Source: a virus
Virus record (IMG/VR): IMGVR_UViG_3300022752_000104
Coordinates: 1-51,805 of that record
Direction: 5' to 3' (one strand)
DNA: 51,805 nt
The position numbers were made by a program, and so were the translations under genes. The notes below the pieces were generated by a model. That model worked only from the letters and a program-made list of their open reading frames with translations, searched no databases and had not been told where the DNA came from. This document shows, in pieces, positions 24,801 through 44,332 of this stretch (the stretch's first letter is position 1; each line of letters begins with the position of its first letter).

Positions 24801-25454
24801 TACATTTTGAGACTGACCAACTAAGTTAGCACTGAAAACAAACCTTTGTGTACCTGGAAAAGAGTTGGCCTTACTAGCATCTAACCGCAATATCAAACCA
24901 TTAGATATAAATTGACCAATTGGTTGATATAGTTCAATACTAACATGACTTAGATACATAGCTTCGTCACTTTGCCCTTGGTCATGTCCTAGAATATGAG
25001 TAGCAGTAAATGTCGAACTCATATGATTTATGAAACCAGTATCAAATTCCACATACCCATTGGCAGTACTATTACTTCCCCACGGCGCATAACTGTAAGT
25101 TGCTGGTACCCAAGTAGCAGAGGAAAATCTATTATACGTGAATAAAGGTGCTCCGGGTGTGCCTGCACCTGGGAATCCGGTCTTAGTAAACTGAGCATAA
25201 ACCTGCCCATCTAAACTTAAGCTACTTTGTTCGTTATCTAAGCTATCCACAAAATGCCAAAACACTCTATAACGCAATCTGGAATGACTGGGTAAATTAT
25301 TTAGGGTTAAGGTATAAGTTCCAGAATTAGGGCCATGGCATGTCACTGTACCTAACCCTGTTATACTAGACATAGTATAGGTGTTGGAATTAGACCAATT
25401 AACCAAATTAGTATTGGCTAATGCACCCTCGTCGTAATAACTTATTGTCGGCAT
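21801..25454 (-). CDS. Modular adhesin with Ig-like repeats, a FAM3/ILEI-like domain and a duplicated lectin-like domain
   Basis: A 1217-residue protein. Residues about 20-185 and 665-845 are two copies of one domain, each with HFVDS(L/I)D.E, a GY..(F/V)DTG..(N/S)H stretch and a (G/A)(H/D)(D)QxQSDEAMY end. Between them are a Thr/Ser linker (about 238-262), three Ig-like repeats of the 'Big' type (for example LKSGDVAMLTFTTSN) and, at about 555-660, a FAM3/ILEI-like domain (RGHIVAYFDVES, KDTYGS, LMNYLTAIPTGNLLVM and HVFIGYK). A fourth Ig-like repeat, a second Thr/Ser linker (about 989-1016) and an unrecognised C-terminal domain follow. In known proteins the ILEI fold binds sugars in at least one member, so glycan recognition is a reasonable inference. 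The start lies 3 bases after the giant gene's stop. Confidence 0.7.
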   Translation of the reverse strand: MPTISYYDEGALANTNLVNWSNSNTYTMSSITGLGTVTCHGPNSGTYTLTLNNLPSHSRLRYRVFWHFVDSLDNEQSSLSLDGQVYAQFTKTGFPGAGTPGAPLFTYNRFSSATWVPATYSYAPWGSNSTANGYVEFDTGFINHMSSTFTATHILGHDQGQSDEAMYLSHVSIELYQPIGQFISNGLILRLDASKANSFPGTQRFVFSANLVGQSQNVAFSHYHIGGAIPGPVIINTTTTIPPIPTSTTTTSTTSTTSTTTTDSPAPLTVTLSSNLSGTILAHQRPIITALLSEPADPVQFTLSDFIAGGRGNLTSFSYYGTTATMMLEPNVDITGSFSVFLPSSSFKTASGSGVWNSSSNTLTFTLNTIRPEIAITTDDNALKSGDVAMLTFTTSNATSNFSNVDISCSGPGFISNFVAVSSTVYNANITGNVNSLGTLSVNVAAGKFTNTIGNRNRDSNLLTIAVDTRFPTMTISATDLFLKYNETSTLTFTSNLATTNFVLADISKFGFGTIDNFSGSNTVYTATYTPPEGKIEVQASNYNQPSGEFVSYIKLNGTSIGTIGRGHIVAYFDVESNTNVFDLDGTVTKDTYGSITEVGDLMNYLTAIPTGNLLVMTSFDATSCNVGLRNILNDNFGGVRTDTWSSLRYSHVFIGYKHTSTVLVDEVLDPTATLSYWTPSTTYTMTYGALGTGTGHGYSPQTGFKLEVPSIPAHTKLRYKFYWHFVDSIDGEEHTLTIDGIEYLRFVKYSYLNNPAEITTNLCSVFQWVEDNTYSYSPFSGDTRDGYFIVDTGWISHTASTANLYMYFGADQAQSDEAMYVTHARVLVSSDFKVPAYEQIIKTGTEGWARGNVQGLTGNIVANVQAAAYTSANGNPNTSSNDLTLYYDTRRPWVSMFSDDEYLTYGETTNVMIITSNVTSNFNLSDITVTGDGVLSNFRSVRDNLYKVQVTPTANTNGSIKLYIDDSKFDDAVGNPNLPSHALSIAVATVTTSTTSTTSTTSTSTSTSSTTTTTTLAADPWNVGFASLPLYDKVDNGTGNYFKLGRVKIIQGDGSEDADDWTVFNFGADNNGDYLGSSSTSSNFGGETTASGGQGGVGATHGGIWGYTAGNWHILYILTLGNDGGAFNNRNGYWFKAGGINNGGLGKQTYYDTLPIDKIAFTSHTSLFTPTSGTPTAHLDSGYQSLAVADIPGAPRTLLNYISSFGVNETSDNIGT
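22406..22488 (-). repeat. Thr/Ser linker repeat with a perfect 9-base tandem core
   Basis: Codes about 27 Thr/Ser residues before the C-terminal domain of the gene at 21801-25454. Positions 22444-22479 are four exact copies of GTAGAAGTT (+ strand), the most perfect tandem repeat in the window. Gain or loss of a unit would keep the frame. Confidence 0.9.
24667..24742 (-). repeat. Thr/Ser linker repeat
   Basis: About 25 Thr/Ser/Pro residues after the first lectin-like domain of the gene at 21801-25454. Confidence 0.7.
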
Positions 25455-25457
25455 CGA

Positions 25458-28400
25458 TTAATCCATTGTGTTTGATGAAGCAGAATCGCTGTTAGTAACT
25501 CCGGCACAATTATCTGGTCTTGTATTACCACCAGTTGCATATATAATTTCTGTGCCTGCGCTATTACAGAAACTACTCCAACCACCACGCCAAGGAGCTT
25601 GATCTACTCCGTATGGAGGACCGCCTGCTGCGGAGCGAGTAGTCGATTGCAGTCCACCTTGTCCACCTGCACCTACTTTAATTATATATTGTGTTCCTGC
25701 TGTAACCGTGTAATTAGTTAACAAGCCAGCCCCGCCACCACCACCGCCGGCGTTAACACAAGGCCCAGTAGCTCCGCCGCCACCGCCAGCAATGATACCT
25801 ACACTAATCTGAGTGACACCCACCGGTACTGTAAAGTTTCCTATAAGAGCACCATCATAAACATTGGATGAACTGCGCTTAGTTGAACTAGCACTATTAT
25901 CCCATTCTATAGCTTGACCACCATTAATTAATCTTGTAGCTCCAAACGTTGTTAGATCACTGTTAGTAAACACATAGCTACCACCTGTTATTGTAATTCT
26001 AACTAGACCGCCTGTGCCATCGCCACCATCAATTGGTGCTGTGGTGGCATTAGCACTGTCGGTTTCTACACCACCGCCACCATTACCTACCCCAGTTGCG
26101 TTAATCGTAGATGAATTGTATCCAGAAAGACCCCCTGTGCCTGCTGAACCTGCTGTGGTATATCCGCCACCTGAACCGCCTGTTCCGTAAGAACCGTCAG
26201 TGCCGACCAAGCTGCTCCAAGATCCACCGCTACCACCTAATGGGCTAGCACTACCACCACCGGCATTACCTAAGTGCCCGCCTGAAGCTGAATATCCACC
26301 TCTATATCCTGTAAATAAACCAGGAGAAGCTAATGGCCCAAACCCATTACCGCCCCAGGCTGCATTAGTTGCAGGGATACCAGGAGGAACTGGTGGCTGC
26401 GGTGGTAAAGTAGTTGTAGTTGTTGTAGTTGATGTTGAAGTAGTCGTACTTGTAGTTGACGTAGTTGTTGCTGGAGGACCATAACGACTGCGTGTAGCAA
26501 AATACATATCAACAACTTCATCGTCGGTCAACGAACGATTGTAAACATAGACTTCACCAATATCGCCATCAAATTCATATCTATCCGGGGTAGCACTAGG
26601 ATTAGTAAAGTTAGCAAAAGTTATGCCAATACCTGCTGTGCCAGATGTTGCTGAGCCGGTTACTTGAACTAAAGTACGCTTACCACCGTTAATATATAAC
26701 TTGTTGTTGTTTACATACGTACTACCACCAATTGTGTTATGGAATACAGCTACCACAAACATCCAAGAATTTTGATACATGGACATCTCTGATGCAGGTA
26801 CACCGTACAAATCACCAGCACTATTGTTAAAGCCTAAAGATCCAGATGGCATCCATAATCTGTAACCAGTTTTCCACTCCATTGGGAACCCGTTAGTTTC
26901 AGCACGCCAACGCATCCACATACAAACAGTATTGTACTCGCCTGGTGTTGTGTTAATACCGTTCATTGATGTAATAGATGTTGCGCGATCATTTACTGCA
27001 TTATTAAGACCAAAACTGAAAATACCTTGTTGCTGTATCGACCAAACAGGACTATTATCTAATAACTGGAAGTGGTTTTGATATGAGCTTAAATCGTACC
27101 AAGTGCGACCTGACAACATATTATTATTAGTAGTAAATCTTACCACACGTTGCTCACCAGGCAACATTGTAAATGCGCTTGGTGTAACATTAGCTGTGCC
27201 TCCACCAGGTGCTTCCACAAGACTAATAGTAACTGGATATGGTACAGGATTGCCGGAACCGGTTAAACTGAGTGTAAATGAATCTGAAGTGCTTAAATTC
27301 GATTCTGTGTAAGGTACCTCAATTGAACTGGAACTGGCACCTAATATACTCAAAGTAAGCGGACTTGGACCAGATGTTGTAGTCGTTGTTGTGCCTATTG
27401 CAGCATTAGATTGTGATAAGACACGAATACTTAAGCTATCATATATAATACCGGGCAATAATTCTTCAGGCGCACGTGAGAAGATTCTGTCAACAAATTT
27501 ACCACCTGCTACTCGAATATTACCAGCACTTATACCTGCGTTACTACCAAAAGTGTCACCTATTAAGATAGTATCTTGCCCGGTACTACTGCCCACAGTA
27601 AATGGGTTAAACGGGTCTATACCCGGAACTAGTCTACCTAAGTCTTTGGGTATATTACCATTATCTGTACTAGGAGCATAATAAGCAATAATACGATCGT
27701 TAGCATTGTCAAATTCATCACTTGTAACTAAACGTAAAAGACCTGGTGTGAATACCGAAGAATTATAAGCACTATCAACAACTTGATAGGCCCGATTATT
27801 ATAACTTAGATAAGTACCAATTGGATAGTTTACATTAGGTTGCCAATCTTGCACCTTACTTGTGTATTGTATTCTATCAAACTTGATGGTGGTCTTTATA
27901 CGACGTACTTTATTATTAGTTAATCTAGCCGATAATACAGCAGACCCAACGTCTTTAGATGTGTCTAATGAACTTGTAACAATTTTCTGACTACGCCAGG
28001 CCTTACCATCAAAAATATAGACTCTTTCACCATAAGTGATGCTTTGCCCGGTCTGCGGTGATGTTGGTACTGTAAGTGGTGTAGAGAATACATAGTTTTT
28101 AGGATCAGCTCTTAACGCTGCCAGGTACCCGCGTTCAATCTTAAAGGTCACGCTTGCATAGGCATCGGGCGCATTATCAAATGAACCTGCATAGTGTTCA
28201 ATACCACGACCAACACCTGATCCCGGGATACCAACCAAAATATAACCACTTCTAAACTTAAATGTAGTTTCTGCGGCAGCGGGCTTACCGAAAACTTCTT
28301 CACTTGCACCACAACGTTGTAGAGCAAGATGTAGATCATTTGTTAGACGATTTCTGTAAGCGTCATCATAGGTATGAACTACAACTACATAATCATCACT

Positions 28401-31400
28401 GGTATTGTTAAGGTCTCTTGCTAAATCTGCACTAGCTAACCCTATATATCCGGATCGATTTTGGCTATAAACATCGTAAACTTGACTAAAGACCACTCGC
28501 CCATCGCTGCGCCTAATGCGATGCATGTGGTAGCCACGTGAATTATTGCTATACTTAACATCTTGATATGGTCCGTAATCCAACAATTGTCTTATTGTTG
28601 GTTCAGCTCCATCTACAACTTCAAATCTAGGAAACGCAAACTGACTGCGAGTGGTATTATCATTGCAATAATAATGGTAACATCTCTGCATGGCCTCTGT
28701 AGCATTAGCAGGAAACTTTCCGTCGTTAATATTTCCATTATTAGCTAAGACTTTTCCGCCAGTGCGAGTATATATACCGCTGTCAGGGTGAGCAGTTATG
28801 CCAGTATAGTTTGCAGGGAAAATATGCCCTACATGTAAGTACCATACATCTTTATCATAATCACCGACACTTCGATAGTTCCAATAAGGGTTATATTCAC
28901 CTTGACCGTCACTTAATCTACGCACACTGCCATTAGGTGAATAGATATTTGTATAAGCAGGATAAGTCCCGTTAGTAAACAGACCATGGTATAAAGTACC
29001 ACCGGTACTATTGCTTGTTCGCCGCATCCAAACTACGCTACGATATGTTTTTGTAGGATCAATACTGAAATTTACACCATTCCAACCGCCATCGGCATAA
29101 TTATCACCACTGGGTCTATTTTCCCAAACTATACTGTTTTGGTTCCACGGATCAATGGCGCGAACACGCTGGTTTTCAGTTGTTAGACCATTCTGTGGGA
29201 ATGTTGGCGTACCACCAGAACCTAGAGTCCAATCTAATGTTGAGATGCGCGAACGCTCGTAGTTCCTAACAAGAGCCGAATCTCCCGGACGTCCAAATAA
29301 GCCGAAACTTAATTTATCCCTGGCACCAACTGTAAAATAACTGTAACCTTGTGTAACAACAGTAAATTCGTGTCGGTCATCGTCGCGAAACGGTACACTA
29401 CCTGCGCCGATTACAGCTACCTGCGGCGTTAGAGTATAATTAGTTCCAGGTTGATCAACGTATACTTTACTAATTCCAAAATTTATGTTATCAAGTTTTA
29501 TACTTACATTTGCGTCAATACCTGCATTGAAATCATTACGTAAGACCTCAACCACAGGCACAATAGCTCGATTGTCCCCAGTTTGATAACCATAACCAGG
29601 TTTACTGATAACAACATCGTTTAGTTCTAACTTGTAGTTCTCTACCCAATCACGATATTGTGGCTTTTGTAGTTCAACTAAGTCAATTGATGGGAACTCA
29701 CCGCTAGGGCTGCGATAAACAGCAAGTGATCTATCATAGTATGCTGGCAGGTCAAAGTCAGTTATAGCACTAACAAAACTATCTTGTTTACCATATGAAG
29801 TTACAAACTCGCGAATCTTTGTCTTGTAGGGTTTAACTTCTTCAATATAAGATTCAACTTGTTTTTGTCTATCTTTTACTGTACCAGTCATTACGCTAAG
29901 ATCATGTATTTTTTGGTTAACAGAAATAAAGCTAGTTTTGAAGAACCAATCAATATATTTCTGCTCTGCTAAGATATAATCTATCATAGCAAATAATAAC
30001 TTGTTCCATTCTTCTTTTAACTCTTGTACAAAAATATCTTCTTTAAGAGCTTGGAACACATAACGTAACTCGATGCTATTTGCGAAGTCGTATACGTGAA
30101 CGTCAAAGTCTCCTGTATCAAAACCATCTGGTTCATAAAATACAGGTTTGAACTGTATGGTTTTCTTTTCTAACCCAACTAACTTTAGATTTACTATACC
30201 ATTCTGATTAGTATATTGGTATAACTCCCATGTGGTGGGAACTTCTTTGTTACCAATACGATTATTACCTAATGAAACATTCGTGCTTGTTACATTGTTA
30301 ACACGTATGATATCGTTGTTGACTAAACTTAGTTGATAGATATCTTTAAATTCATTAACAATGTGATTAGGCTTCACGCTGGATGTGAATCCCAATGCAT
30401 ACCAATCTTGGTACGTCCATAAGTTAGCTACATTGAAACTTTGTTTTTTAATTAACTCTAGTGTAGTGTTAGCAGCACTGGAAACAAGTCCAACTGTACC
30501 AGTTCTGCGGTATATACTCCAGTAACCGCCTAAGGTAGAATCGGAACGAACAAATATTCTAATTGCTTGGGTTTTCTGTGAAGGCGTATAGATTTCTGAG
30601 TAGGTGTCTACAGCTACGTCATATTCTGTACTATCTGGGTCAGATTGTTTAGCAAATAGGTTATCGGAAAAGATACGATCACGATCTATAACTCTGTTAG
30701 CAATAGGATATGCATTTAAAACATCATTGACATATTTTATAATATTTTTTCTAGCGTTTTGTAGATTAACTATTAAGGTTTGTCTTGGTCTTAACCCTAA
30801 ACCAATTCTGCTTTCTCGAGGTAGTTTTTGATCGGGTACTAGTTCACCGTTAATGTCTGTGCCTATAATACTGTCAATCAGTTTTGTTTCAATTAATTCT
30901 GGGAATTCGCTTCGAACATTACCTTGTTGAATCAGTTTGAAGTCGCTGTGTATTAACCCGTCGCGCTCATTTTTTCTAGTGGATAGATAGACAACGCTTC
31001 TATCACGTTGGTTATATATTCCTGTTCCAAATAAAGCAACTGCATCGTCGCGCAGAGCACACATGTAGGCAATGCCTTGCTTATCTGGATTAGCAATCAT
31101 GTCAGCTAACACTACGGTGCTAGCTGCTTTCTTACTTGCGGTTTTATTAGTAACGCCCTTAACCCAGTAGAAATAACGACTTACAAAAGCACCTGTATTA
31201 GGATCAATAAATACAGCATCGCTATAGTATTCATCGTTAGGATACAACGGTTGACCTTCGCGTCCCTGGCTTACATGCACACTAGGTAATACATCACTAG
31301 CAACCCACTCATAGACATCAATTGAACTACCTGGGAATAATTCACCCCAATGATTTTTACGATATTCTAAGTCACCTTGTTCATAATCAACGTATCTTGC

Positions 31401-34400
31401 AGTGTCAGTGTTCCACCAATAGGTTCCAACTTGGTCGGCTGCCCAATAAATTTCAGTGCTAAAATTATAACTAGATGTTGTATCTGTGTTTCTATACTGT
31501 GCAGGATCACGATCCGTGATAATGTCGATTTCGGCACGAGCTTGACCTAGTATTTTTCCTTTGGCCGGATCATACAGATCTATTCTAGCTTGAATATTCT
31601 TTTCTTTTGAGTCATAAAGATACAGATTATTGATACTTTCGATGTCAACAATTGGTTCCCAATGTCTAACCTCGGTGAATGAATATATTGGTGTTCCAAC
31701 ACTAATAGTTGAATTAGCAAACGAGCTTACTTCGCCATCAATCACAGGTGTACTAGCAAGATCGGCTGTGGTGGCTGGTTCAATTGTATAGTATAAGTCT
31801 TCACTATTGTCAAAGCTAAAAACACAGAAATTAATTTCTTCTCTTAGACCAACTGAGCTTACTAAACTATTAGCAACAATACAATTAACACCGACAATGC
31901 TATATGCATTACTAACAACTACATTACTGTAGAAAATATTTTCATAGGTTATGTCCAGAATCTCGGGCTCATAGACATACCATGTTCCGGGCAGACTCTG
32001 CCTATCTACATAAATTCTATCAGACCTATCAGTATTAACTTGACGTTGTCTGTTTATACCAATCCATCCATGTTTAGGCTTGTGAGCAGTGAGGTCTTCG
32101 TAGGTAGCAAAACGCAAAATCTGCATGTCAAGCAGTTGCCCACTGGCATTAGTTACCTTAAAGTTAGAAGCTAGGCCCCTCTTAATTACAGTAAATTCGT
32201 AGTCTGAGACAGACACTACTTGATAAAAACCATTTATGCTGGTATCAAGATTGCGTACAGCAACAACGTCTAGAGCATTTACATAATGCAGATTATCACA
32301 AGTAAAAACTAATTTATTGTTTAGGTCTGCTCTTGCCGATGTTATAACTAAATTGTTAACATATACTCGATAAACTTGCCAATCACGATTATATGTCTTA
32401 GCTACCCAGATTCTTGTTGTAGTCTCTAGATCTGCTAGCCAACTAGAATCAATTCCACTGGTGTCTGATATGTCATAGATAAATTTGTCAACTTCATCTA
32501 GGCGAGCATAGCCGGCCGATCTCAAATCATCTTCATAGTAACGCATTGAGCTAGCAATCTTACCATCAATCGCTTGTTGTATGATCGGTACTAGTCCCTG
32601 TTCAACTATTCGTTTATAACCTTCTTGTGTTGGATGAATTCCATCAACAGAGAACAAGCTACGATAGCTATCAAATTTAGTTATATCTACAACAAAATCT
32701 CCGTACTCTAAAGCTATAGAACTCATAGCTCTTTGATAAGCACTAAGATCATTTGTACCCGGTGCTATAACAGCAGTATTTGTATTAGAATCATCAAGCA
32801 CAGGCAATTGCCAAATTACTGTAATTGAATTTGGTAGTCTATTTCTAATCTCACGTAAATTATTGGTATATGTGCCTACGCTGATGCCTTGTCTTGCATC
32901 GTTTAATCCGTGATTAATGACAATAAGATCTGCTTCAATGCCATCAGGCCAAACACCATTCACCCCATCAGTGCCATTTAACAAATCACTTGTGGTTGAA
33001 CCTTCTGCCGATCTAGTAGTGATAGCGACCTTGTAGTTACTTTCTAAGCTAGTGTAAAGCAAATAATCCGGTGGTAATTCTACACGACCTGTAGTTTTAT
33101 CGTTTATACATACAGCAGAATTAATAGTATCCCCTAATCCAGTAATACCAGTAAGTGGCTGATCCGTATCGGAAATTTCTTCAATGGTCCAATATAAATT
33201 TTCTGTATCTAATACACTATTAATTTCTAAATAGATATTGTCGCCCATTACTACAGAATCAGGTAAGAATGTTGAGCCATCTTCTGACTTAGATTCACCG
33301 GTGTCTGATGCAGTAACAGGTTCAAAGCTAACGTACACACGTTCGTAGGGTATCTTACTAGTTACTTGTAATGATATTTCAGACTCGGGCAACAACGTAT
33401 CTGTTGATGTATACACTGTACTAGGAGCACTGCGAGATAAAGGAACGTCTGTGCTTGTAGGACTTTCTAAGGTAATGTACAATTCCTCATTTGGGTACAA
33501 AGAACTAAATTGCACACCAAAACTTTCATTGTTGAAAAGATAAGTTTTTGGCTCTTGGTTGTAAACACCAGTTACCATAACGCTATAAGCGTTCTTAGTC
33601 TGCATGTCAACGCTGTAACCGTGTCTCTTAACAATGCTAATAGCGTACTGCTCGGGCAATACCTCTTTACCACACATAACGCTATCGCCAAATAATTCGA
33701 TTTTCCAAGAACGTTGTGTTTCTACTGCATTTCTGTTCTTGAAGATTTTGGGACGATAGTCATTGGGTGCGGTGAGCAAGTCAGCAGGTTTAAGACCAAT
33801 GAACTCATTGCTTTCTATTTTGCCTTCACTGGTAATGAACTGGTATAGAAGAGGATTATCGTCGGAGTTGGTGTTTTTTAAAGAAAATGTATATTCTGGG
33901 TTACTGTCAATGGCGCCATAACTTCCGATCCTGGCTCCCCATTCTTCGTATAACTCAATATCAGATTCAACATTATCAAACTGAGCACGAGCAAATGCTT
34001 GAATAGCATTTGGTGTGCCTTTAGACTTAATGTAACCTTGATAAAACTTAATCTGGCTGATTTCACTAATACCTAAATTATCTAAGTACTCTCTTGGCTT
34101 AAACCCAATTAAACTATTACTGTAGCTTGCTAATGTTTCATTGGTAGGTAAAATATCTACATCATAAATTTCTGTGAATTTAGCTGCATTCAAACTAAAA
34201 TTAGGAGCCAACCCTTGTCTAAACACACTGTCTAACTGAGTCCAATAATTAAAGTTAAACGATTCAGCACCGGGGATGTCTTCTAGTGCGCTGTAATTAA
34301 ATCCTTTATAACTTACAATTGCACCCTTTTTGTAATCGTAGTTGGCCTGCCACTCGTCTATAGTACCAGAACTATAAACGAAACCAGGAGGTGTAAGATC

Positions 34401-37400
34401 ACCATCCCATGAATCTGTTATCGATCCAACGATGCGAATACGTTGTTGACGATCCCCAATTTCTGGACTATATAAGGTATCATTAAAGATTGTACGATTT
34501 TCTAAAACAAGTACGTGTTCAAATTGAACTAAATTAATTCTAGCTAAAGCAATAGTTTGTTCATTAATAGTTCTAATTGTAGTACGCTTTGAATCGCGAA
34601 TAACAGTGAAGTCATTGTTTCTAATGACATTAAAATTAGTGCCTATTACCTGTGATCCATACACTGAATTATCAATGTAATCAACAAAGTAATTCGGTGC
34701 ATAAACAGTTAGAGTATCAAATATAGGACTTAATACAAGAATGTTACCAGTAGGCCAACCTTGTTTTGCCCATGTAACAAATTCTTGAACGCTTAATGTC
34801 CAGTTACGAACTTGTCCTAAATTGCTATCGTAGCTGTCAAATACTAAACCTTGTGCTACAAGATAACGTTGATAGCTTACTAGGAAGTCGACTACTTGTT
34901 GTACACTTGTAAATTCAAAACCATAAGGTATTCTAATTTTTTGTGGGAAATATCTTTCAAAAATAGTATAGGTAGAACCTAATACTTCAATCTTAGAACT
35001 AGGGCCTGTGCTTTGACTTGGAATAATTGTAAAGTAGGGTAAACGTTGATCGTATCCATTTACACTGTATCCATTAGCAGTTTTCTCAACAATAACTGCG
35101 CTGTAGGCAATACTTTGTTCAGGTAAGCTCTTACGCAATAAAATGCTATAACTTTCATCAGGTAAAATTACACTTTCACTTGTGCTAGTTAAACTTATTT
35201 GATCAGATAATACCTTAATATAGTTTTTATCCGTAAAGCCGGCAAACTTGTAAGCTAGGTTTACAGTGGAATTATCGATCAATGCTCTAATCTTTGACAC
35301 TGGATCGATACCTAACCCAACCAAGTAACCATGTATCCAATTAATATAACTGCTAGTTCTTGATGTAACATTATCTACTGTTTCACCATTAATAGCTAAC
35401 TCGCTAAATGACAGCCTGGTGTTGCGATTTCTTAGGAAGTATTGGCTTAGACCGCCAACTGTTCTGCGTTCATATCCATATGAATCAGCTAATAAACCAA
35501 AATATTTGGCAGGTTTCAATAAAGCAAATGCTCTTTGAACAGCGAACGGGTAATCACTTGACCTAGCCCATGCTGCTTCTACTGGGCCATAATCACCAGT
35601 GGTAAAGTTTCTAGATAGCTTGGAGCTATCGAAACCACCAATAACACATCGCTGTGGAGACAACAAGCGACCATTTGTATCTACTGGAACATATTTTCTA
35701 AAGTTTGGTCTCGCTGCACTTATTCTAATTTGTGTTAGATATAACGTGCTTGTTGGCTCGTTAATACGTCCATTTTCAATCGCAGTAATAAGCAACTGTC
35801 TTTTTGTAGGATCAGTCCAAGAATAATGTGTATCCCACCACAATGGCTTGATAGTGTACCCCAAAATTTCCCAAGGATGGCTATGAGGACGATCGGTGTC
35901 ATAAAAATAACGATAAATTCCTCTCCAGTATCCTGGTACTCTTTGATTATCTAAATCTTGTGCTTGATTGTAATTCCAAGACCATTCGTCATTTGCAGAA
36001 AAATACTCATTGGTATTATAATTAATTTGGTATGCACCAACCCATTTTAAGAATTCGCTACCTAGAACACTAGTGAATTCTGATCTATTGTAATCTGTAT
36101 TTCTAAACTTACCAGGAGTGTTAGCTGCAATGCTAAACAAAGAGTCAGTATAATTGACCTTTATATTATTATAAATTCTAGATTCTAGCTCTAGGACTAT
36201 GTTGTCTCTTATGTCATTAAAAGCAGGTAACAAGCTACCATCATGACCTTGTAATAGATACAAGCCGTCACGGTCAGTTTCATCTAAGATTTTTTCTGGA
36301 ACAAAGCGTGGATACAAACCCAACTTACTAGGCGTTTCAGGAACGTAACATCCGTCAGTATCAGTGTATTCTTTAATAACAACTATATCGCCTTCATTAA
36401 CTTCAACAGAATTCTGAATTGTAATGGTCGGGCTAGTGTTAATGACATAGTCACGATCACGAACTAATATTTGATCATTCAAATATACAACAATAGCTCG
36501 ATTGCTGGGACGAAATTCAAACGTTTCATTGATGTTATAAATTCTTTGTGCTGAATTAGAAACACGCAATCTAGTTGTTAAAACTGAACGACCAAAAGGC
36601 ACCATGTCTGAATAGAACCAGGGAAAACTACTGTTCTTAACTTCAGCAAAACTAGTAAGAATTTCATCTACAGCATCAGGAACTTGAGATTGAGTAATAT
36701 CTAAATATCTAGCAGTAGCGTCTAAAAATTTATATTTAAACCTAGAGTATTCTTTTTGTGCATATTCAACAGCATTTACATAATTGGCATGCTCATCTGT
36801 CAAAAATGCTAGCGCAGGTAATAGACTAGCACTGTGCTGTAGAATAAGGCCCGGTGTGTTTCCAACATTAATGTCACGTATGTTGCTAGTGCCAAAAACA
36901 TCACCCTGGATGAAACGATTTCTTTCACCTATTTTACTTAGGTGATTTCTCATTTGACCAAAACTAATTAACTTGGGTACCCGATTATCCGGATTAACTT
37001 CTAAATTTTGTGGAACAGTATAATATGCCTGTGGCGAAACACCGCTGGCATGTATAAAAATATCAATACGATCATTGACACTAAGCAAAGTATAATCAAT
37101 ACGCAATGCTGTTCTGTCGCCCACTCGTTCAACTGAATATTCGGTGCCAGTGTAGCGCAACAGATCGCCATTAACATACACACGTAAGTTTGAATCTACA
37201 CTAGACGATGCTATTGGAACTTGCCCAATTTCAAAATAATTGGTTACAGCGTCGTAGATAGCGGAAATATGCTGGAACTGCCTGCTTTCGTCTGGTACCC
37301 TAACATAATTTGTTAAGAGCGCGAATTGATTAATTGTAATATTTTGTCTAATGTACCCAACATTAATAAATTCACTAACTTTATCATCTAAAACATTTTC

Positions 37401-39908
37401 AGTTCGATACCTAAAAGTATCTACATCAAAATTATTTTCAAATACGATATCGCCACTTAATCCAGAATCACCAGATACAGTTATAGTAAATCCAAGTGCT
37501 TTATCAACCTGCCCCGATCCCAGGCGATATCCAAAAATATTTGTTCCAGTGAACGAACTTTCGTTGTAGGATACAGAAATACTTTGACCGGTTTGTGTAA
37601 CAATATCAAACTTTGGTGCTTGGTTAAGGGTCAGTTTAGTTTGCGCTCGAGTCCATGAAAGCGACTTGTTAAAGTAATAAGTAAGGCCTTTGTTGGTACC
37701 GGCATTTACAACAATAGTTTCCCAAGGTTCGCAAGTCTTTATTGCTGCAAGGCTAGCACGAGCGCGATTAAATTTATTTCCGCTCGCGCCACTAATATTA
37801 ATAGTAATTGGTTCAGTTAACAATAACTCGTTTATACCAAGTATTCTCTCCACTCTGCCTAGATATGCGTTATCTGACAAATATATATCATCACCAGGAC
37901 TCAATTCAGTTACAAAATCAGTACCCACACCAGTTACTCTTGCACTTTGAGCAGTCATGCTAATAGATCCACTTAGCGTTCCGTCAAATAATGTAACACC
38001 TATTTGATCTAAGTAATTAACTTGATACACTCTTCTGCGTACATCACTATTGGCGTCCCCGGCAAATACTGCTAGTGAGCCTGGTTTTATATAAATGCCT
38101 AAGCCGCGTAAGTCTGAAAATCGAGCAGTTTGTAATGTTGCTAAGGCATCGGTTAACTCTGTGCTTTGACCATTCAAACTATACCTAAAGTCGCTGTCAA
38201 AGAAATTTTCTACAAATTTAGCGAATTGGCGGCCCGAATTAAACAATTGCAGATTGGGCGCGAATTCGATAATCGGTCTTTCTGCTCTACGGTACCCGCT
38301 TAAATCGATAGGATATCCATTGCTAGACAAAGCAGCAATTACTACATCTTCGTGGAACCAACGATTAATTCTGGACCAGGCATTACGATCCATGCTGGCC
38401 CTGTTTATTACTAAGTAGTCTGGTTCAGCTGACCCCGATAATGCTTCATCGTAACTTCCGACATCAAATTGTTTTGTATCAAAACTAATTTCTGCGACAC
38501 TTCCTTGCGCTTCGGGACTGGCTAATTCATCTATGCTAACTAATTTAATTCCCGATCCAACACCCTCAACATAATAAATTTTATTTCTATATTCAACAGG
38601 TGTAGCAGTATCATCAAATGAAACTTTCATACCATTTGAAAATTTTATACCCGTAGGAGATGTGTAATTAACAGATCCTAATATGGCAGATACGTTAACT
38701 TCGTAGCTATCGGCGTTTTCAACGATTTCTATTTCACCATAGAAATCGCGACCACTATGCTGATAAAATAAACGATCGACTTCAGCAGTTACTCCGTTGT
38801 ATTCTTGGAATTGTCCCGAAGTTACTGTGTACTGCTTTCCGGCTGCTGAGCCTTGTCCTACTACAACTCTAGTCTGGGCAGGAACATCTCTTACATAGGT
38901 CAAATGCACACGAACAGGCTGACCCGAATACTTAACAGCATTCATTCTCCAAATGCCTGTCCTAGCTGCGCCTGTGACAACTTGTCCGTTTCTGTCAGTC
39001 CAATCGGCTGAATTTGTAGAAGTGTTTAATAAAATTGCTTCAACGCCATCGGGATAAAACTGTTCGTTACTTAAACGATTAGTCATACCGTCGCCAAAGT
39101 TCCAAACAATGTTATCTAATGTAGTTAATGTTTCAGAAAGCGCATACTCTACATGATCTAAAACTGGGTAGCGTAAGAGTTGATCTTGTGCAGCTTCAGT
39201 TGGCGGTGTAAAAGTTATTGTGTTTGATCCATTATTAACAACACCAGCAACTTGTCTGCTTGACACAGCAGGAGAATATCGCTTTGTTCCTGTACGACCG
39301 GGCTCGGTTTGGATAAACAAATTACCACCAAACATGCTGGCATTGAACGTATATGTGACACCACGGCGTAATACTAGTTTAGGATTAGCTTCAGTGCCAG
39401 TTACATTAGTTGTAATAAAACTGTATTGGTCAACAAAATTATAAGTAGTGGCGGCAAAAACACGTCGTCCTGTAATCTTAATAGTATCAGGCCCTACCGG
39501 TAGCCAATAATATTTTTTATAATTAACTAACTTATCTAAATCTATAGGAGGTTTATATGAATAGTATTCGTTAGCAAACAAACGATCATGATTGTTTACA
39601 ATGCCACCATGATAGGAGATTTGGTTAATTAAATCGGTGTACCCAGACTGCCCTATTACTGTTCCATCTTCTTCGCGACGAATCAATGCTACTTCTAATT
39701 GATAATTTTGTCTTTGAGTAGATGGTTCTGCTATGTATGTTTCTGATGGCTTTATGTTAGGTCCAAAAACACGACCTACATAACTGTTAACCCGACGGAA
39801 CTCTGGTTCGCTAACTAGCTGATCTAATGTACTCGATAAAAACTTACGGTTAGCATCAGTTTGAAAAATACTTGGTAAAAATGGTAGCGTTTTTCTATTC
39901 GTAGTCAT
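25458..39908 (-). CDS. Giant (4816-residue) baseplate-associated structural protein with SGNH hydrolase and glycan-binding modules
   Basis: One uninterrupted gene occupies 14.4 kb. The N-terminus (residues 1-165, with FQTDANRKFL and NYKKYYWLP) matches the large virion proteins I recall next to gp6 in cyanophages and pelagiphages. A cupredoxin-like fold follows (about 175-245). An SGNH hydrolase is embedded: FGDS (Ser near 2075), NHGLND (near 2333) and DGIHPT (near 2422), with about 250 residues of beta repeats between the first two blocks. Later come a jelly-roll-like segment (about 3573-3776, with HPDSGIYT), a second FAM3/ILEI-like domain (about 3790-3910, with YILVGIPGSGVGRG), a conserved stretch to about 4165, a LamG-like domain (about 4264-4476), a Thr/Ser linker, and a Gly-rich end (about 4500-4816). 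The likely role is baseplate periphery plus host-glycan binding and deacylation. Confidence 0.75.
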   Translation of the reverse strand: MTTNRKTLPFLPSIFQTDANRKFLSSTLDQLVSEPEFRRVNSYVGRVFGPNIKPSETYIAEPSTQRQNYQLEVALIRREEDGTVIGQSGYTDLINQISYHGGIVNNHDRLFANEYYSYKPPIDLDKLVNYKKYYWLPVGPDTIKITGRRVFAATTYNFVDQYSFITTNVTGTEANPKLVLRRGVTYTFNASMFGGNLFIQTEPGRTGTKRYSPAVSSRQVAGVVNNGSNTITFTPPTEAAQDQLLRYPVLDHVEYALSETLTTLDNIVWNFGDGMTNRLSNEQFYPDGVEAILLNTSTNSADWTDRNGQVVTGAARTGIWRMNAVKYSGQPVRVHLTYVRDVPAQTRVVVGQGSAAGKQYTVTSGQFQEYNGVTAEVDRLFYQHSGRDFYGEIEIVENADSYEVNVSAILGSVNYTSPTGIKFSNGMKVSFDDTATPVEYRNKIYYVEGVGSGIKLVSIDELASPEAQGSVAEISFDTKQFDVGSYDEALSGSAEPDYLVINRASMDRNAWSRINRWFHEDVVIAALSSNGYPIDLSGYRRAERPIIEFAPNLQLFNSGRQFAKFVENFFDSDFRYSLNGQSTELTDALATLQTARFSDLRGLGIYIKPGSLAVFAGDANSDVRRRVYQVNYLDQIGVTLFDGTLSGSISMTAQSARVTGVGTDFVTELSPGDDIYLSDNAYLGRVERILGINELLLTEPITINISGASGNKFNRARASLAAIKTCEPWETIVVNAGTNKGLTYYFNKSLSWTRAQTKLTLNQAPKFDIVTQTGQSISVSYNESSFTGTNIFGYRLGSGQVDKALGFTITVSGDSGLSGDIVFENNFDVDTFRYRTENVLDDKVSEFINVGYIRQNITINQFALLTNYVRVPDESRQFQHISAIYDAVTNYFEIGQVPIASSSVDSNLRVYVNGDLLRYTGTEYSVERVGDRTALRIDYTLLSVNDRIDIFIHASGVSPQAYYTVPQNLEVNPDNRVPKLISFGQMRNHLSKIGERNRFIQGDVFGTSNIRDINVGNTPGLILQHSASLLPALAFLTDEHANYVNAVEYAQKEYSRFKYKFLDATARYLDITQSQVPDAVDEILTSFAEVKNSSFPWFYSDMVPFGRSVLTTRLRVSNSAQRIYNINETFEFRPSNRAIVVYLNDQILVRDRDYVINTSPTITIQNSVEVNEGDIVVIKEYTDTDGCYVPETPSKLGLYPRFVPEKILDETDRDGLYLLQGHDGSLLPAFNDIRDNIVLELESRIYNNIKVNYTDSLFSIAANTPGKFRNTDYNRSEFTSVLGSEFLKWVGAYQINYNTNEYFSANDEWSWNYNQAQDLDNQRVPGYWRGIYRYFYDTDRPHSHPWEILGYTIKPLWWDTHYSWTDPTKRQLLITAIENGRINEPTSTLYLTQIRISAARPNFRKYVPVDTNGRLLSPQRCVIGGFDSSKLSRNFTTGDYGPVEAAWARSSDYPFAVQRAFALLKPAKYFGLLADSYGYERRTVGGLSQYFLRNRNTRLSFSELAINGETVDNVTSRTSSYINWIHGYLVGLGIDPVSKIRALIDNSTVNLAYKFAGFTDKNYIKVLSDQISLTSTSESVILPDESYSILLRKSLPEQSIAYSAVIVEKTANGYSVNGYDQRLPYFTIIPSQSTGPSSKIEVLGSTYTIFERYFPQKIRIPYGFEFTSVQQVVDFLVSYQRYLVAQGLVFDSYDSNLGQVRNWTLSVQEFVTWAKQGWPTGNILVLSPIFDTLTVYAPNYFVDYIDNSVYGSQVIGTNFNVIRNNDFTVIRDSKRTTIRTINEQTIALARINLVQFEHVLVLENRTIFNDTLYSPEIGDRQQRIRIVGSITDSWDGDLTPPGFVYSSGTIDEWQANYDYKKGAIVSYKGFNYSALEDIPGAESFNFNYWTQLDSVFRQGLAPNFSLNAAKFTEIYDVDILPTNETLASYSNSLIGFKPREYLDNLGISEISQIKFYQGYIKSKGTPNAIQAFARAQFDNVESDIELYEEWGARIGSYGAIDSNPEYTFSLKNTNSDDNPLLYQFITSEGKIESNEFIGLKPADLLTAPNDYRPKIFKNRNAVETQRSWKIELFGDSVMCGKEVLPEQYAISIVKRHGYSVDMQTKNAYSVMVTGVYNQEPKTYLFNNESFGVQFSSLYPNEELYITLESPTSTDVPLSRSAPSTVYTSTDTLLPESEISLQVTSKIPYERVYVSFEPVTASDTGESKSEDGSTFLPDSVVMGDNIYLEINSVLDTENLYWTIEEISDTDQPLTGITGLGDTINSAVCINDKTTGRVELPPDYLLYTSLESNYKVAITTRSAEGSTTSDLLNGTDGVNGVWPDGIEADLIVINHGLNDARQGISVGTYTNNLREIRNRLPNSITVIWQLPVLDDSNTNTAVIAPGTNDLSAYQRAMSSIALEYGDFVVDITKFDSYRSLFSVDGIHPTQEGYKRIVEQGLVPIIQQAIDGKIASSMRYYEDDLRSAGYARLDEVDKFIYDISDTSGIDSSWLADLETTTRIWVAKTYNRDWQVYRVYVNNLVITSARADLNNKLVFTCDNLHYVNALDVVAVRNLDTSINGFYQVVSVSDYEFTVIKRGLASNFKVTNASGQLLDMQILRFATYEDLTAHKPKHGWIGINRQRQVNTDRSDRIYVDRQSLPGTWYVYEPEILDITYENIFYSNVVVSNAYSIVGVNCIVANSLVSSVGLREEINFCVFSFDNSEDLYYTIEPATTADLASTPVIDGEVSSFANSTISVGTPIYSFTEVRHWEPIVDIESINNLYLYDSKEKNIQARIDLYDPAKGKILGQARAEIDIITDRDPAQYRNTDTTSSYNFSTEIYWAADQVGTYWWNTDTARYVDYEQGDLEYRKNHWGELFPGSSIDVYEWVASDVLPSVHVSQGREGQPLYPNDEYYSDAVFIDPNTGAFVSRYFYWVKGVTNKTASKKAASTVVLADMIANPDKQGIAYMCALRDDAVALFGTGIYNQRDRSVVYLSTRKNERDGLIHSDFKLIQQGNVRSEFPELIETKLIDSIIGTDINGELVPDQKLPRESRIGLGLRPRQTLIVNLQNARKNIIKYVNDVLNAYPIANRVIDRDRIFSDNLFAKQSDPDSTEYDVAVDTYSEIYTPSQKTQAIRIFVRSDSTLGGYWSIYRRTGTVGLVSSAANTTLELIKKQSFNVANLWTYQDWYALGFTSSVKPNHIVNEFKDIYQLSLVNNDIIRVNNVTSTNVSLGNNRIGNKEVPTTWELYQYTNQNGIVNLKLVGLEKKTIQFKPVFYEPDGFDTGDFDVHVYDFANSIELRYVFQALKEDIFVQELKEEWNKLLFAMIDYILAEQKYIDWFFKTSFISVNQKIHDLSVMTGTVKDRQKQVESYIEEVKPYKTKIREFVTSYGKQDSFVSAITDFDLPAYYDRSLAVYRSPSGEFPSIDLVELQKPQYRDWVENYKLELNDVVISKPGYGYQTGDNRAIVPVVEVLRNDFNAGIDANVSIKLDNINFGISKVYVDQPGTNYTLTPQVAVIGAGSVPFRDDDRHEFTVVTQGYSYFTVGARDKLSFGLFGRPGDSALVRNYERSRISTLDWTLGSGGTPTFPQNGLTTENQRVRAIDPWNQNSIVWENRPSGDNYADGGWNGVNFSIDPTKTYRSVVWMRRTSNSTGGTLYHGLFTNGTYPAYTNIYSPNGSVRRLSDGQGEYNPYWNYRSVGDYDKDVWYLHVGHIFPANYTGITAHPDSGIYTRTGGKVLANNGNINDGKFPANATEAMQRCYHYYCNDNTTRSQFAFPRFEVVDGAEPTIRQLLDYGPYQDVKYSNNSRGYHMHRIRRSDGRVVFSQVYDVYSQNRSGYIGLASADLARDLNNTSDDYVVVVHTYDDAYRNRLTNDLHLALQRCGASEEVFGKPAAAETTFKFRSGYILVGIPGSGVGRGIEHYAGSFDNAPDAYASVTFKIERGYLAALRADPKNYVFSTPLTVPTSPQTGQSITYGERVYIFDGKAWRSQKIVTSSLDTSKDVGSAVLSARLTNNKVRRIKTTIKFDRIQYTSKVQDWQPNVNYPIGTYLSYNNRAYQVVDSAYNSSVFTPGLLRLVTSDEFDNANDRIIAYYAPSTDNGNIPKDLGRLVPGIDPFNPFTVGSSTGQDTILIGDTFGSNAGISAGNIRVAGGKFVDRIFSRAPEELLPGIIYDSLSIRVLSQSNAAIGTTTTTTSGPSPLTLSILGASSSSIEVPYTESNLSTSDSFTLSLTGSGNPVPYPVTISLVEAPGGGTANVTPSAFTMLPGEQRVVRFTTNNNMLSGRTWYDLSSYQNHFQLLDNSPVWSIQQQGIFSFGLNNAVNDRATSITSMNGINTTPGEYNTVCMWMRWRAETNGFPMEWKTGYRLWMPSGSLGFNNSAGDLYGVPASEMSMYQNSWMFVVAVFHNTIGGSTYVNNNKLYINGGKRTLVQVTGSATSGTAGIGITFANFTNPSATPDRYEFDGDIGEVYVYNRSLTDDEVVDMYFATRSRYGPPATTTSTTSTTTSTSTTTTTTTLPPQPPVPPGIPATNAAWGGNGFGPLASPGLFTGYRGGYSASGGHLGNAGGGSASPLGGSGGSWSSLVGTDGSYGTGGSGGGYTTAGSAGTGGLSGYNSSTINATGVGNGGGGVETDSANATTAPIDGGDGTGGLVRITITGGSYVFTNSDLTTFGATRLINGGQAIEWDNSASSTKRSSSNVYDGALIGNFTVPVGVTQISVGIIAGGGGGATGPCVNAGGGGGGAGLLTNYTVTAGTQYIIKVGAGGQGGLQSTTRSAAGGPPYGVDQAPWRGGWSSFCNSAGTEIIYATGGNTRPDNCAGVTNSDSASSNTMD
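26407..26472 (-). repeat. Thr/Ser linker repeat in the giant gene
   Basis: About 22 Thr/Ser residues between the LamG-like and Gly-rich domains near the C-terminus of the giant protein. Confidence 0.8.
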
Positions 39909-39919
39909 TACCTAATCCA

Positions 39920-42900
39920 CTAGTTCATACTAGGTTGAAGATCCAAAGCAGTGATTGTTGACACAATTTCAACATCATCTACTGTGGCTGCACTTATTAC
40001 AAGTTCATATGGCTCAGCATTTACCTGATATAAATTACCAAATGACCTTGCAACATTCTTACTTACTATAACAATACTTGCTATATTTGGTGTTAATACT
40101 TTGTGTAGATAAGCAGCTAATTCACTGAAATAAAAAGTATCACCAAAATCCCAATTCTCACTAGCGAAATACTGGTTTATCGCAGCAACTACCGACGCTT
40201 TAACATCGGCGTCTGTTAAACTTAAACTAGGATTCTTTACAACTTTAAATGTAGCTTGATATTGAGTATCGGCTTTAGCACCAAATAAAGGCTTGTATCG
40301 TGCAGATTGAATAACTAGTGTATCACTCACACTCTTATAATTTTGCAAGTCTGCATAACGAGTAGATAACGCTAAGTCGGTAGGCGCCTCGGGTTCTGTC
40401 AAACGCTGCGTGGTATCTGCCAACCATAGTCTATAATCAGTTTCATACTCGGCTGTGAGCACATAGATATCTATTATATTACTAATATTAGGATCAATTC
40501 TATTTGAGTTAGGACTATTGTGTCTGTATTGATAGTATAGATTTTGTCTACCAACATGAACTAGATAATTTGGCACTGCATTTACGCTTGTCAAATTAAG
40601 CCCATCGCTTACTACTTTATCACCTAAACTATTAGTTGTACATTTATAGAATTGGTCGTCACCTCTAGCATAGAACAATTGATCGAGATTGTAATTCCTA
40701 ATGTCTTGTGCTATTTCAGATTTATTGTTATAGTAACTTATTACTGTATTCGAATCAATTAATTGATACTCGTTACCGTAATCAGTTTTAACTAATCGGA
40801 AATAAACTAACTCACGTGCGGTAATTTTCCCATTACGCTTTAATTCGGCCTCAGGAAGCGCCCTAATAAAGCCCAGTGCATCATTAATCGTAAACAAACC
40901 TTGAGCTACACCATTAACATAATAATTTAATTCATTTAAATTAGGATATCTTCCCACTGTTTTCTTAAATTCATAGTTAATTGTAATAGCTGTTTTTTGT
41001 GCAGGAACTCCAGGCACTGTTGTTCTATATGGTCCGCCTAATACTGCTCTATCAAACAAATTAGGACTATCAGGTACGCCATCTTGGTTTGAGTCAGCGT
41101 AGGTCAAATATACACTACGATTTTCTACATACCCATCGGCTCGTTTAATTTCTTTGTAAATAAACCAATCTAAATCCATGTTTAGGCCAGAGCCCACCGA
41201 ATCTGGTGATGAATTCGTACGCAGCAACTTAATTGAATCGTTTATTATTCTATTGTTTACACTATCATAAATTTGCAGAGCATGATCAAAGAAGAAATTA
41301 GTTTCTAATGGACTATGGAAAACATAACGCAATGATCTATTACTAATAATATAGTATTGATTCACCGAGTTCCAATCAAACTTTACATGGTAGTTACCTG
41401 TTCCAGTAGACAATGCGTCTACTAGAATCCAATTCTGCTGACTCGAGCTGTACAGTAATCCAAAATTTGTTTTATTGTTGATTAATGTAACCATTTCATC
41501 AACTATAAAGTCGCGCAAAGCAGTTTTGTAGCTAGGATACATTACTTCAACTAATGCACCAGTGGGAATTGGTAGATTAATTGTAACTGGACCTTGTCCA
41601 TTTGAAAAGTTTCCTAGCCCGTTATTTGTACCGTCACCATAAATTTGGCTTATACCAACAAACTTCTCTGCTGAATCACCTGCGCTAAGATTTGGCCCAG
41701 GGATCATATTGAAATTACTATTAAATCTATAACCAACTTCTGGAGTAAATTTTACCATAGCACCAGTGGCAAGGAATCGTAAACTACCAGAAACCCCTAG
41801 ACCAATACTGGTCGGTATTCCATTATAGCTAAAATACCCTGTTGATTGTCCATTACCAATAGTAGATTGATTCCATTTGAGACTTGTTCTTACGGTACCA
41901 GAACCATATGCCTCAACAACTATATTACCAGCTAATGAGTTTGTGCTCCATCCTGCAGGAACGTTCCTAAATCCACAGGTACCATATGTGCCTGCGTCAA
42001 AAGTTTTATTTGGACTAAGAGAACGATCTAGTTCTGCGGAATTTACATTAGCAAAAAAAGCAGTATAAAAAGTTAAAGACTCAGGGTCTATTGCCCTATC
42101 TAATGCATAATTCGTCCAGTATGCTAGACCACTATGATCTGGGTTGCGAAACAGAGCATATCTTACCTCACCATTGGATAAAATATAAGAATTATTTGTG
42201 TTGTAGTATAGTAATACTTTAAGAGCTTGAGCACGATATATAGCTTCAGGATATGTACCACGATATTGATTAACAAATGCAGTCATATCATAACAATCAC
42301 CGGCATAATTGCGGCTTACATAATAGTAGGTGCCGGCCGGCACATTAGTAGTGTCCCATGTAACTTTACCAGAGCTAGCCCCGTTATTAGTCACAACACC
42401 AACTGTGACGTTTGCAAATACACCACCAGTACGTGAGCCCTTAATATGTATCGGTTGTCCAGATGTTTTAATATCTAATATTAATGTTTCGCCAGTTTTT
42501 ACTGTTATAGTAGGGTTGTATGCAGCAGCATTTGAATTTAATACAAATGCTGCTGTATTATATGTGTCTACCGAATACGTTCTTGTACTTAAACTATTAT
42601 CTGTGGCTCGAAACACTGTGCCAACAGTGTTTGTAGCAGCACCATACTTAGTAAAATTTGAAGTGCCGACCGTAGTGATTTGATAAAACTCACCACGCTT
42701 AATTTTTTTTTCAACTATATCATCTAAGTCAGGTATTTCAGGACTTACATTTTCATAGTAATAGTGCATCAAATTTTTATCATCAATAATATCGGGAATG
42801 AATGTATTGCGTAAGAACTTGCGAATGTCTATTTCGTTTTTGTATGTAAAATTTCTAGTTTGTAATTGGTTTTCAGAGTAGAGAACACCGTCCTCACCAA

Positions 42901-44332
42901 AAATGTTTGTGCTTGAATATTTTCCTGTTGTATCTAAAACGTCAAGATATCTACTTAGACCTGAACTAATCCTATTGATTGCTTTAACTTTGCGTATATC
43001 ACTATAGGTTGTGTAAGGGAAGATATTATAATCTTCCCCTGTGACCATACGATTTTGTGTATAGTATTGTTGCGGGGCACGTTGTTTAATTTCGTCTGCG
43101 GTTTCTCTTGCGTTGGCGTTGGCCACTGTGTATCTTAGACTAGCACGGAACGATATAGTTTCAACTCTATTAGTTCTACTAATATAATCAAAACTTATTT
43201 CTACGCCACGTATTTCGTCGGGTGTAATTTTGTAGTTTAATCCGTTGCTTACTCGATAATATAATTTAAAACGACCTTGTGGTATATTTGCAAAACTGCC
43301 ATCACCAAATACCAAACTAATTTGGTCTCCGGCTCTTGTGTTTACCTGGTATAAATTTTTTAAACTTCTGTTATTGTAGATAACATTAAGTCCATTAGTT
43401 GTAGGTACTTGTTCCCATATTTCATCTGTAAATCCGTTGCTGGTTAAATTGTATAACCAAACATCGGAGTTATTGATATTGTCGATATCGATGTTAACAA
43501 CTTTATTTGGTACCATTGCGTCGATACCGAAGTCATAATTGTTTAACTCGCCTTGCTTGAAGTAAAAGAAAAATCCGGTATTGTTACTACCATTTCCATT
43601 TCCATCACTACGATATAGAATATTGAAAGGGCGGTTAATATCAGGATTGGCTTCGTAAACGTAATTCTTACCAGAACTTGTGGCACTAACTGCTTCGAAT
43701 GTTGTGTTTAATCCATTGACACTGGTTTCAAACTTATAAACAGGTACAATATTGTTGATTAAATTAATGCCATATTCGTCTGTGCGTATACGGTTTATGA
43801 TTTGACTGTTAGCAGGTCTTCCAAAATTTTGTTGTTTTAACAAACTGGCATTCAAAACTGTTACAAATTGCTCAAACCAATTTGAGTTACTAACATCATT
43901 CCATAGTATAATACGATTGCTCAAATCAAAGCCATCACTGTCGAAAATAGTTTCTGTAGTGCTGACACTGTCTATTTTTAAATAGCCCGAAGCAGGTACG
44001 TTGCGCTTGGGATTGTAGCTTATTAAACGTGCTAGCTTTAGTATACTATCACGCCGTTCAGCTGTGTCAATAAAGTTCTCTCTAGCATTAAGATCTGTTC
44101 TAAAGGCTAGACTCTGTCCCAAGAATGCTATTAGATCAATGAGAGCAATAAATTCGCTGCTCTCTGTATAGTCGTTAAATTCCTCAGCATAATTTATCCT
44201 TAGATAATCGATCATGGTCTTACGTAAAGACTCGAAATCATATGAGGTGAAATCGGCTTCTCTAAAGGTTTGATAGACCTTTTTCCAATTTTCGGCTGCT
44301 AGGGAACCGGTTTGACGACTAGTAATTGGCAT
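39920..44332 (-). CDS. gp6: Baseplate wedge protein gp6-like, enlarged by a long insertion
   Basis: The first ~540 residues and the last ~215 match gp6, which dimerises around the T4 baseplate to hold the wedges together. The N-terminus has ENWKKVYQTFREADFTSYDF and AFLGQSLAFRTDLNARENF, both typical of the family. The C-terminus carries a NWDFGDTFYFSELAAYLHK segment. T4 gp6 has 660 residues, while this protein has 1470. The extra ~700 residues include a module with TTVGTSNFTKYGAATNTVG (about 548), a cupredoxin-like domain (about 605-685) whose usual metal-binding end is altered (YYYVSRNYAGD), and two DUF4214-like segments (about 725-790 and 1120-1175). An ATAAATA element precedes the gene. Insertions probably decorate the baseplate edge. 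Confidence 0.9.
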   Translation of the reverse strand: MPITSRQTGSLAAENWKKVYQTFREADFTSYDFESLRKTMIDYLRINYAEEFNDYTESSEFIALIDLIAFLGQSLAFRTDLNARENFIDTAERRDSILKLARLISYNPKRNVPASGYLKIDSVSTTETIFDSDGFDLSNRIILWNDVSNSNWFEQFVTVLNASLLKQQNFGRPANSQIINRIRTDEYGINLINNIVPVYKFETSVNGLNTTFEAVSATSSGKNYVYEANPDINRPFNILYRSDGNGNGSNNTGFFFYFKQGELNNYDFGIDAMVPNKVVNIDIDNINNSDVWLYNLTSNGFTDEIWEQVPTTNGLNVIYNNRSLKNLYQVNTRAGDQISLVFGDGSFANIPQGRFKLYYRVSNGLNYKITPDEIRGVEISFDYISRTNRVETISFRASLRYTVANANARETADEIKQRAPQQYYTQNRMVTGEDYNIFPYTTYSDIRKVKAINRISSGLSRYLDVLDTTGKYSSTNIFGEDGVLYSENQLQTRNFTYKNEIDIRKFLRNTFIPDIIDDKNLMHYYYENVSPEIPDLDDIVEKKIKRGEFYQITTVGTSNFTKYGAATNTVGTVFRATDNSLSTRTYSVDTYNTAAFVLNSNAAAYNPTITVKTGETLILDIKTSGQPIHIKGSRTGGVFANVTVGVVTNNGASSGKVTWDTTNVPAGTYYYVSRNYAGDCYDMTAFVNQYRGTYPEAIYRAQALKVLLYYNTNNSYILSNGEVRYALFRNPDHSGLAYWTNYALDRAIDPESLTFYTAFFANVNSAELDRSLSPNKTFDAGTYGTCGFRNVPAGWSTNSLAGNIVVEAYGSGTVRTSLKWNQSTIGNGQSTGYFSYNGIPTSIGLGVSGSLRFLATGAMVKFTPEVGYRFNSNFNMIPGPNLSAGDSAEKFVGISQIYGDGTNNGLGNFSNGQGPVTINLPIPTGALVEVMYPSYKTALRDFIVDEMVTLINNKTNFGLLYSSSQQNWILVDALSTGTGNYHVKFDWNSVNQYYIISNRSLRYVFHSPLETNFFFDHALQIYDSVNNRIINDSIKLLRTNSSPDSVGSGLNMDLDWFIYKEIKRADGYVENRSVYLTYADSNQDGVPDSPNLFDRAVLGGPYRTTVPGVPAQKTAITINYEFKKTVGRYPNLNELNYYVNGVAQGLFTINDALGFIRALPEAELKRNGKITARELVYFRLVKTDYGNEYQLIDSNTVISYYNNKSEIAQDIRNYNLDQLFYARGDDQFYKCTTNSLGDKVVSDGLNLTSVNAVPNYLVHVGRQNLYYQYRHNSPNSNRIDPNISNIIDIYVLTAEYETDYRLWLADTTQRLTEPEAPTDLALSTRYADLQNYKSVSDTLVIQSARYKPLFGAKADTQYQATFKVVKNPSLSLTDADVKASVVAAINQYFASENWDFGDTFYFSELAAYLHKVLTPNIASIVIVSKNVARSFGNLYQVNAEPYELVISAATVDDVEIVSTITALDLQPSMN

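Follow-up and report, generated by a model that had tools for sequence, protein, structure and literature searches.

We found that a giant baseplate-region protein encoded in the DNA stretch analysed here (the window, 51,805 nucleotides of the IMG/VR virus record IMGVR_UViG_3300022752_000104) carries an SGNH/GDSL hydrolase domain that is itself split by a repeat-bearing insert, and that most phages sharing this module have lost residues of its catalytic site. We lean towards reading the module as a once-acquired SGNH esterase with a recognition insert, which trims acylated surface polysaccharide and which in several relatives only binds. In the mechanism we propose, an SGNH carbohydrate-esterase domain would have entered the giant protein in a single event, within a small set of uncultured phages of the jumbo type. 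The accessory repeat insert, placed directly behind the nucleophile block and held at its base by two cysteines, would grip the acylated surface polysaccharide from the virion, and adsorption would be helped by deacylation at the Ser-His-Asp site. Several relatives, having lost catalytic residues, could use the module for binding alone. A receptor-trimming type of enzyme would here be placed in a baseplate-region giant and not on a fibre.

The giant gene is preceded by an adjoining baseplate gene:

25458..39908, minus strand: 4816-aa giant structural protein of the virion (baseplate region), occupying the gp7 position (phrog_10938, 1037 bits)
39920..44332, minus strand: gp6-like baseplate wedge subunit (phrog_10646, 958 bits)

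Upstream there are also genes for a gp25-type wedge protein and a hub/lysozyme, and fibre-like genes follow downstream. Assignment of the giant to phrog_10938 is based on both the profile match and the position after the gp6-like gene; the whole protein gave no match when compared with PDB sequences. Homologues of 3.3-3.9k aa in PA5oct, PBECO4, SCTP-2, Serratia phage BF and others sit directly 3' of baseplate wedge genes, with neighbours similar to those in the window, and the annotation of the PA5oct homologue notes its detection by mass spectrometry. From gene order, we infer a T4-type baseplate-region protein equivalent to T4 gp7. The virion location assumed in the earlier note is well supported by this gene order together with the PA5oct annotation, and the SGNH module is presumably exposed on the virion surface. 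Elsewhere in the giant, an ILEI match (residues 3791-3896), a CBM_5_12 match barely over its cut-off (1852-1874) and a Gly_rich_2 match (4691-4808) form a chain of several possible sugar-binding modules, and a Thr/Ser-rich linker lies near residue 4520.

The SGNH module occupies a site at which relatives run from 'FLNRD/E' straight to 'ENDI/TAGY':

32550..33725, minus strand: inserted SGNH module, residues ~2062-2453
31944..32528, minus strand: conserved domain (AGY...IWVAKxxxxDWQVYR) following the insertion, residues 2461-2655, common to relatives without the SGNH module

About 392 residues separate NRNA(2061) from SSMRYYEDDLRSAGY in the window, against none in relatives. The site was empty in 46 of the 47 relatives surveyed, and the only GDSL match in the 47 scanned inserts came from the window's own duplicate contig. 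A viral scan with the single sequence likewise recovered the identical contig only, and both scans of genome contigs yielded little. With a pattern derived from a two-sequence alignment, the split module turned up at the identical site in seven additional contigs, namely L118, L119 (also L102), L120 (L103), L121 (L104), L122, L123 (L105) and L127 (L110). In a tree of the flanking sequences (75 rows), the eight carriers formed one clade with 99% support, accounted for by one change, and L015, the nearest outgroup, is without the module. The module was therefore acquired once. Unsplit domains, 39-45% identical, open separate proteins in L106-L109, where SGNH is followed by ILEI, laminin-G (LamG) and Ig-like domains in a fibre-like arrangement; on the contigs of L106, L108 and L109 the giant's site is empty too. 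Given these unsplit versions in separate proteins and the empty giants beside them, the domain has probably passed from one tail gene to another among related phages. Judging from these sequences, the internal insert was probably gained around the entry into the giant or later, either order of the two steps being possible.

Further downstream, FG-GAP repeats (propeller type) occur in 42 of the 47 giant-family inserts and are absent from the window and the seven SGNH-carrying relatives. The region bounded by the AGY domain and the second anchor (31632-31943 in the window) lies in a stretch that varies from 253 to 1609 aa between anchors among L015-L093; in one of the 47 a YHYH domain replaces FG-GAP, and L015 shows DGYPIYGPFGY. 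This stretch looks like a cargo-swapping site. The SGNH module itself marks a defined cargo site in a protein family that hundreds of uncultured phage contigs share.

The earlier note had taken FGDS, GLND and DGIHP for blocks I, III and V of an SGNH esterase, in the right order, and this identification held. The motifs start at residues 2073 (33692), 2334 (32909) and 2422 (32645), inside a region (residues ~2066-2453) that Pfam and AlphaFold2 both assign to an SGNH/GDSL domain:

33663..33713, minus strand: SGNH segment 1 (residues 2066-2082), containing strand 1 and FGDSVMCGKE of block I
33681..33683, minus strand: catalytic Ser2076, from alignment
32550..33113, minus strand: SGNH segment 2, first helix and blocks II, III and V, residues 2266-2453 (PF13472, AlphaFold2 core)
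33000..33002, minus strand: block II Gly2303, from alignment
32901..32903, minus strand: block III Asn2336, from alignment
32634..32645, minus strand: block V Asp2422-His2425, from alignment

Two Pfam profiles exceeded their cut-offs on the local segment, PF13472 (Lipase_GDSL_2) with 57.1 bits where 32.9 are required and PF00657 with 33.6 where 23.6 are required; since block I is placed ahead of the insert, the profile match begins only at position 25 of the profile. The nucleophile Ser2076 in the GDS of block I, the oxyanion residues Gly2303 (block II) and Asn2336 (block III), and Asp2422 and His2425 in the DxxH of block V fall on the catalytic positions when aligned with 12 unsplit relatives. 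Structure prediction had been suggested as the check, with refutation expected if the blocks did not form one domain; instead, a single alpha/beta/alpha core joined both segments across the interruption. This core is confidently predicted on both sides (116 residues >=90), whereas most of the insert falls below 50. The best structural matches listed for the core are SGNH enzymes (Z 17.5-20.9) that span both sides of the insert, the top one being 1yzf, aligned over model residues 5..386 with a Z of 20.9. Many of the matched SGNH structures are carbohydrate esterases, acetylxylan esterases, carbohydrate esterase family 3 and Ape1 among them. No hemagglutinin-esterase was among the Foldseek matches listed, which counts neither for nor against a likeness to that family.

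We then compared the catalytic residues across the carriers. Ser, Asn, Asp and His are intact in the window, L119 and L121, and with its complete site the esterase of the window phage is probably still active. A key residue is lost in five of the eight carriers: Ser in three (Gly in L120 and L123, Asn in L127), the block III Asn in two (Glu in L118, Thr in L122) and His in two (Tyr in L123, Ile in L127). At least four independent loss events are implied by the tree. Ser, Asn, Asp and His are all retained in each of the 12 unsplit relatives, and the difference (5/8 against 0/12) gives a Fisher p of 0.0036 with shared ancestry ignored; as the scan patterns favoured Asn-keeping unsplit relatives, Ser or His loss alone (3/8 against 0/12) can be set beside it, with p about 0.05. 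An SGNH lipase became inactive when Ala replaced the corresponding Ser, Asn or His (PMC10779480), and Glu or Thr in place of the block III Asn might leave some activity. The putative deacetylase role put forward in the earlier note is therefore complicated by the relatives. Since five of eight carriers are without Ser, Asn or His, catalysis is not what keeps the domain in this group. The SGNH core is 38-68% identical among carriers, with pN well below the saturated pS. Even between L123 and L127, which lack both Ser and His, core identity is 53% and non-synonymous changes are few although synonymous sites are saturated; the fold is therefore still under selection. A domain retained by most carriers despite lost residues suggests a drift from cutting host sugars towards binding only. 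An incomplete literature survey found no report of catalytically dead SGNH domains in phage tails.

These losses could be carried further, the module being a recognition or structural domain in all members, the window included, with the intact residues as leftovers of a vestigial esterase. The repeated inactivation in a clade that kept fold and insert speaks for this, as does the conservation of the L123/L127 core, and it is countered by the complete sites of the window, L119, L121 and every unsplit relative; we consider this explanation possible but rather doubtful. Intact and inactivated copies within one clade make the point at which a virion enzyme turns into a pure receptor-binding domain testable.

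The recognition role that we propose falls to the internal insert, which is absent from the 12 unsplit relatives:

33114..33662, minus strand: internal insert (residues 2083-2265), separating block I from the first helix of the SGNH fold
33378..33521, minus strand: repeat 1, residues 2130-2177 (single-unit profiles)
33237..33377, minus strand: repeat 2, residues 2178-2224 (single-unit profiles)
33123..33236, minus strand: repeat 3, residues 2225-2262 (single-unit profiles)
31692..31835, minus strand: repeat 4, residues 2692-2739, where most relatives have the FG-GAP propeller
33672..33674, minus strand: Cys2079, at the insert start
33108..33110, minus strand: Cys2267, at the insert end

Relative to the unsplit proteins, ~183 extra aa follow GDSVMCGKE and precede both the first helix (ELPPDYLLYTSL) and block II. 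The spacing of about 250 residues between the first two motifs, described earlier as far above the usual, is confirmed (260 residues from Ser2076 to Asn2336), while the usual value of ~60 given for comparison was slightly low, unsplit relatives having ~76-86; the excess is ~180 residues. The three repeats reported in the insert, ~38-48 residues each, and a fourth copy reported near 31810 were both recovered, since single-unit profiles detected the other units and the fourth copy in carriers with scores above all 160 shuffled sequences. HHalign probabilities between units were 96% (1-2), 74% (1-3) and 41% (2-3), and the units matched neither Pfam nor PDB profiles. The repeats are probably beta-type; copies were looked for in relatives without the SGNH module and were not found. 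Cys2079 and Cys2267 are the sole cysteines of the SGNH domain, one at each end of the insert. The pair is kept in seven of the eight carriers, both being missing in L120, and cysteines also stand at both equivalent positions in the four nearest unsplit proteins. It is reasonable to infer that the two may form a disulfide at the neck of the insert.

An active esterase could also carry this insert as a mere spacer or as a contact to the trimer or a neighbouring protein, with no sugar binding. The insert predicted alone reached a pLDDT of 42 only and a PDB profile search gave it no solved relative, which would suit a spacer, as would the fourth repeat copy outside the SGNH domain. However, the insert is 16-59% identical between carriers and diverges faster than the core in every pair, as expected of a recognition part, and its position beside the nucleophile block matches that of an accessory beta domain in Ape1. 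We therefore rate a spacer function as improbable, slightly more so than a vestigial site in all members. Chance motifs or an assembly artefact, for which nothing speaks but the earlier note's reliance on short motifs, can be dismissed as virtually impossible in view of the Pfam and structure matches, the homologues, the identical second contig and the seven diverged contigs with the same arrangement.

An esterase with a recognition insert has several counterparts. In NmApe1, a peptidoglycan O-acetylesterase, the SGNH domain is interrupted by an accessory domain (residues 104-221) that lies between Ser80 of block I and Gly236/Asn268 (PMC6174289), and the insert described here likewise lies between block I and block II (Ser2076, Gly2303). 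NmApe1 differs in being a periplasmic housekeeping enzyme with one CBM35-like domain (beta-sandwich), in place of repeats in a phage giant. CE20 carbohydrate esterases, which are bacterial polysaccharide enzymes, are also reported to have an ancillary domain within the SGNH domain (PMC12313940). The split that the earlier note thought unusual is real, but accessory beta domains within SGNH folds were already known (PMC6174289, PMC12313940), hemagglutinin-esterases being a further case. New here are the location in a giant, the repeat insert and the recurrent inactivation in a phage lineage.

In hemagglutinin-esterases, a receptor-binding domain lies inside the SGNH esterase chain and specificity rests on that domain (PMC9487903), and in HKU1 HE and influenza HA one half of the esterase/receptor pair is vestigial (PMC7495468). 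The HE/HEF proteins and influenza HA resemble our module, with its proposed recognition insert, in joining an SGNH esterase to a receptor domain within the chain, with a vestigial half possible. They differ as animal-virus glycoproteins to which no sequence relation was found, and sialate specificity is not implied for the window domain. The hemagglutinin-esterase insertion point also differs from that of the window domain. That family is defined by a jelly-roll receptor domain inside the SGNH chain and by specificity for O-acetyl sialate; the window domain does contain an insert, and we do not assign it to the family. We tentatively speculate, while thinking it unlikely in full, that a baseplate esterase gained a recognition insert within its own chain, that binding was then selected, and that catalysis was lost repeatedly and independently, giving a phage counterpart of the hemagglutinin-esterases. 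If so, living lineages show the steps from an active enzyme to a vestigial esterase.

SGNH domains on virions are known from the fibres G7C gp63.1 and Possum gp66, which deacetylate host polysaccharides (PMC9569702), and from two fibres of Klebsiella prophages, which are active esterases (PMC13123978). Those are fibre or spike receptor-binding proteins, whereas the window domain is part of a giant baseplate-region protein. The phrog_10938 giants of PA5oct/PBECO4/SCTP-2-like jumbo phages belong to the same family and share the gene order of the window, but those examined are without the SGNH module at its insertion site.

Several other proteins of the window carry recognisable domains. The protein next after the giant (21801-25454) matches the Ig-like Big_12 three times and ILEI below threshold, and a fibre-like protein (18604-21777) has an LCCL domain near its C-terminus (30.5 bits, cut-off 22.6), a domain best known from eukaryotes. 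The protein at 3510-5588 contains GLEYA (58 bits), a domain of adhesins that is known chiefly from fungi. A Peptidase_S74 (endosialidase chaperone) domain ends a fibre-type protein at 16641-17801, which suggests self-cleaving trimeric fibres.
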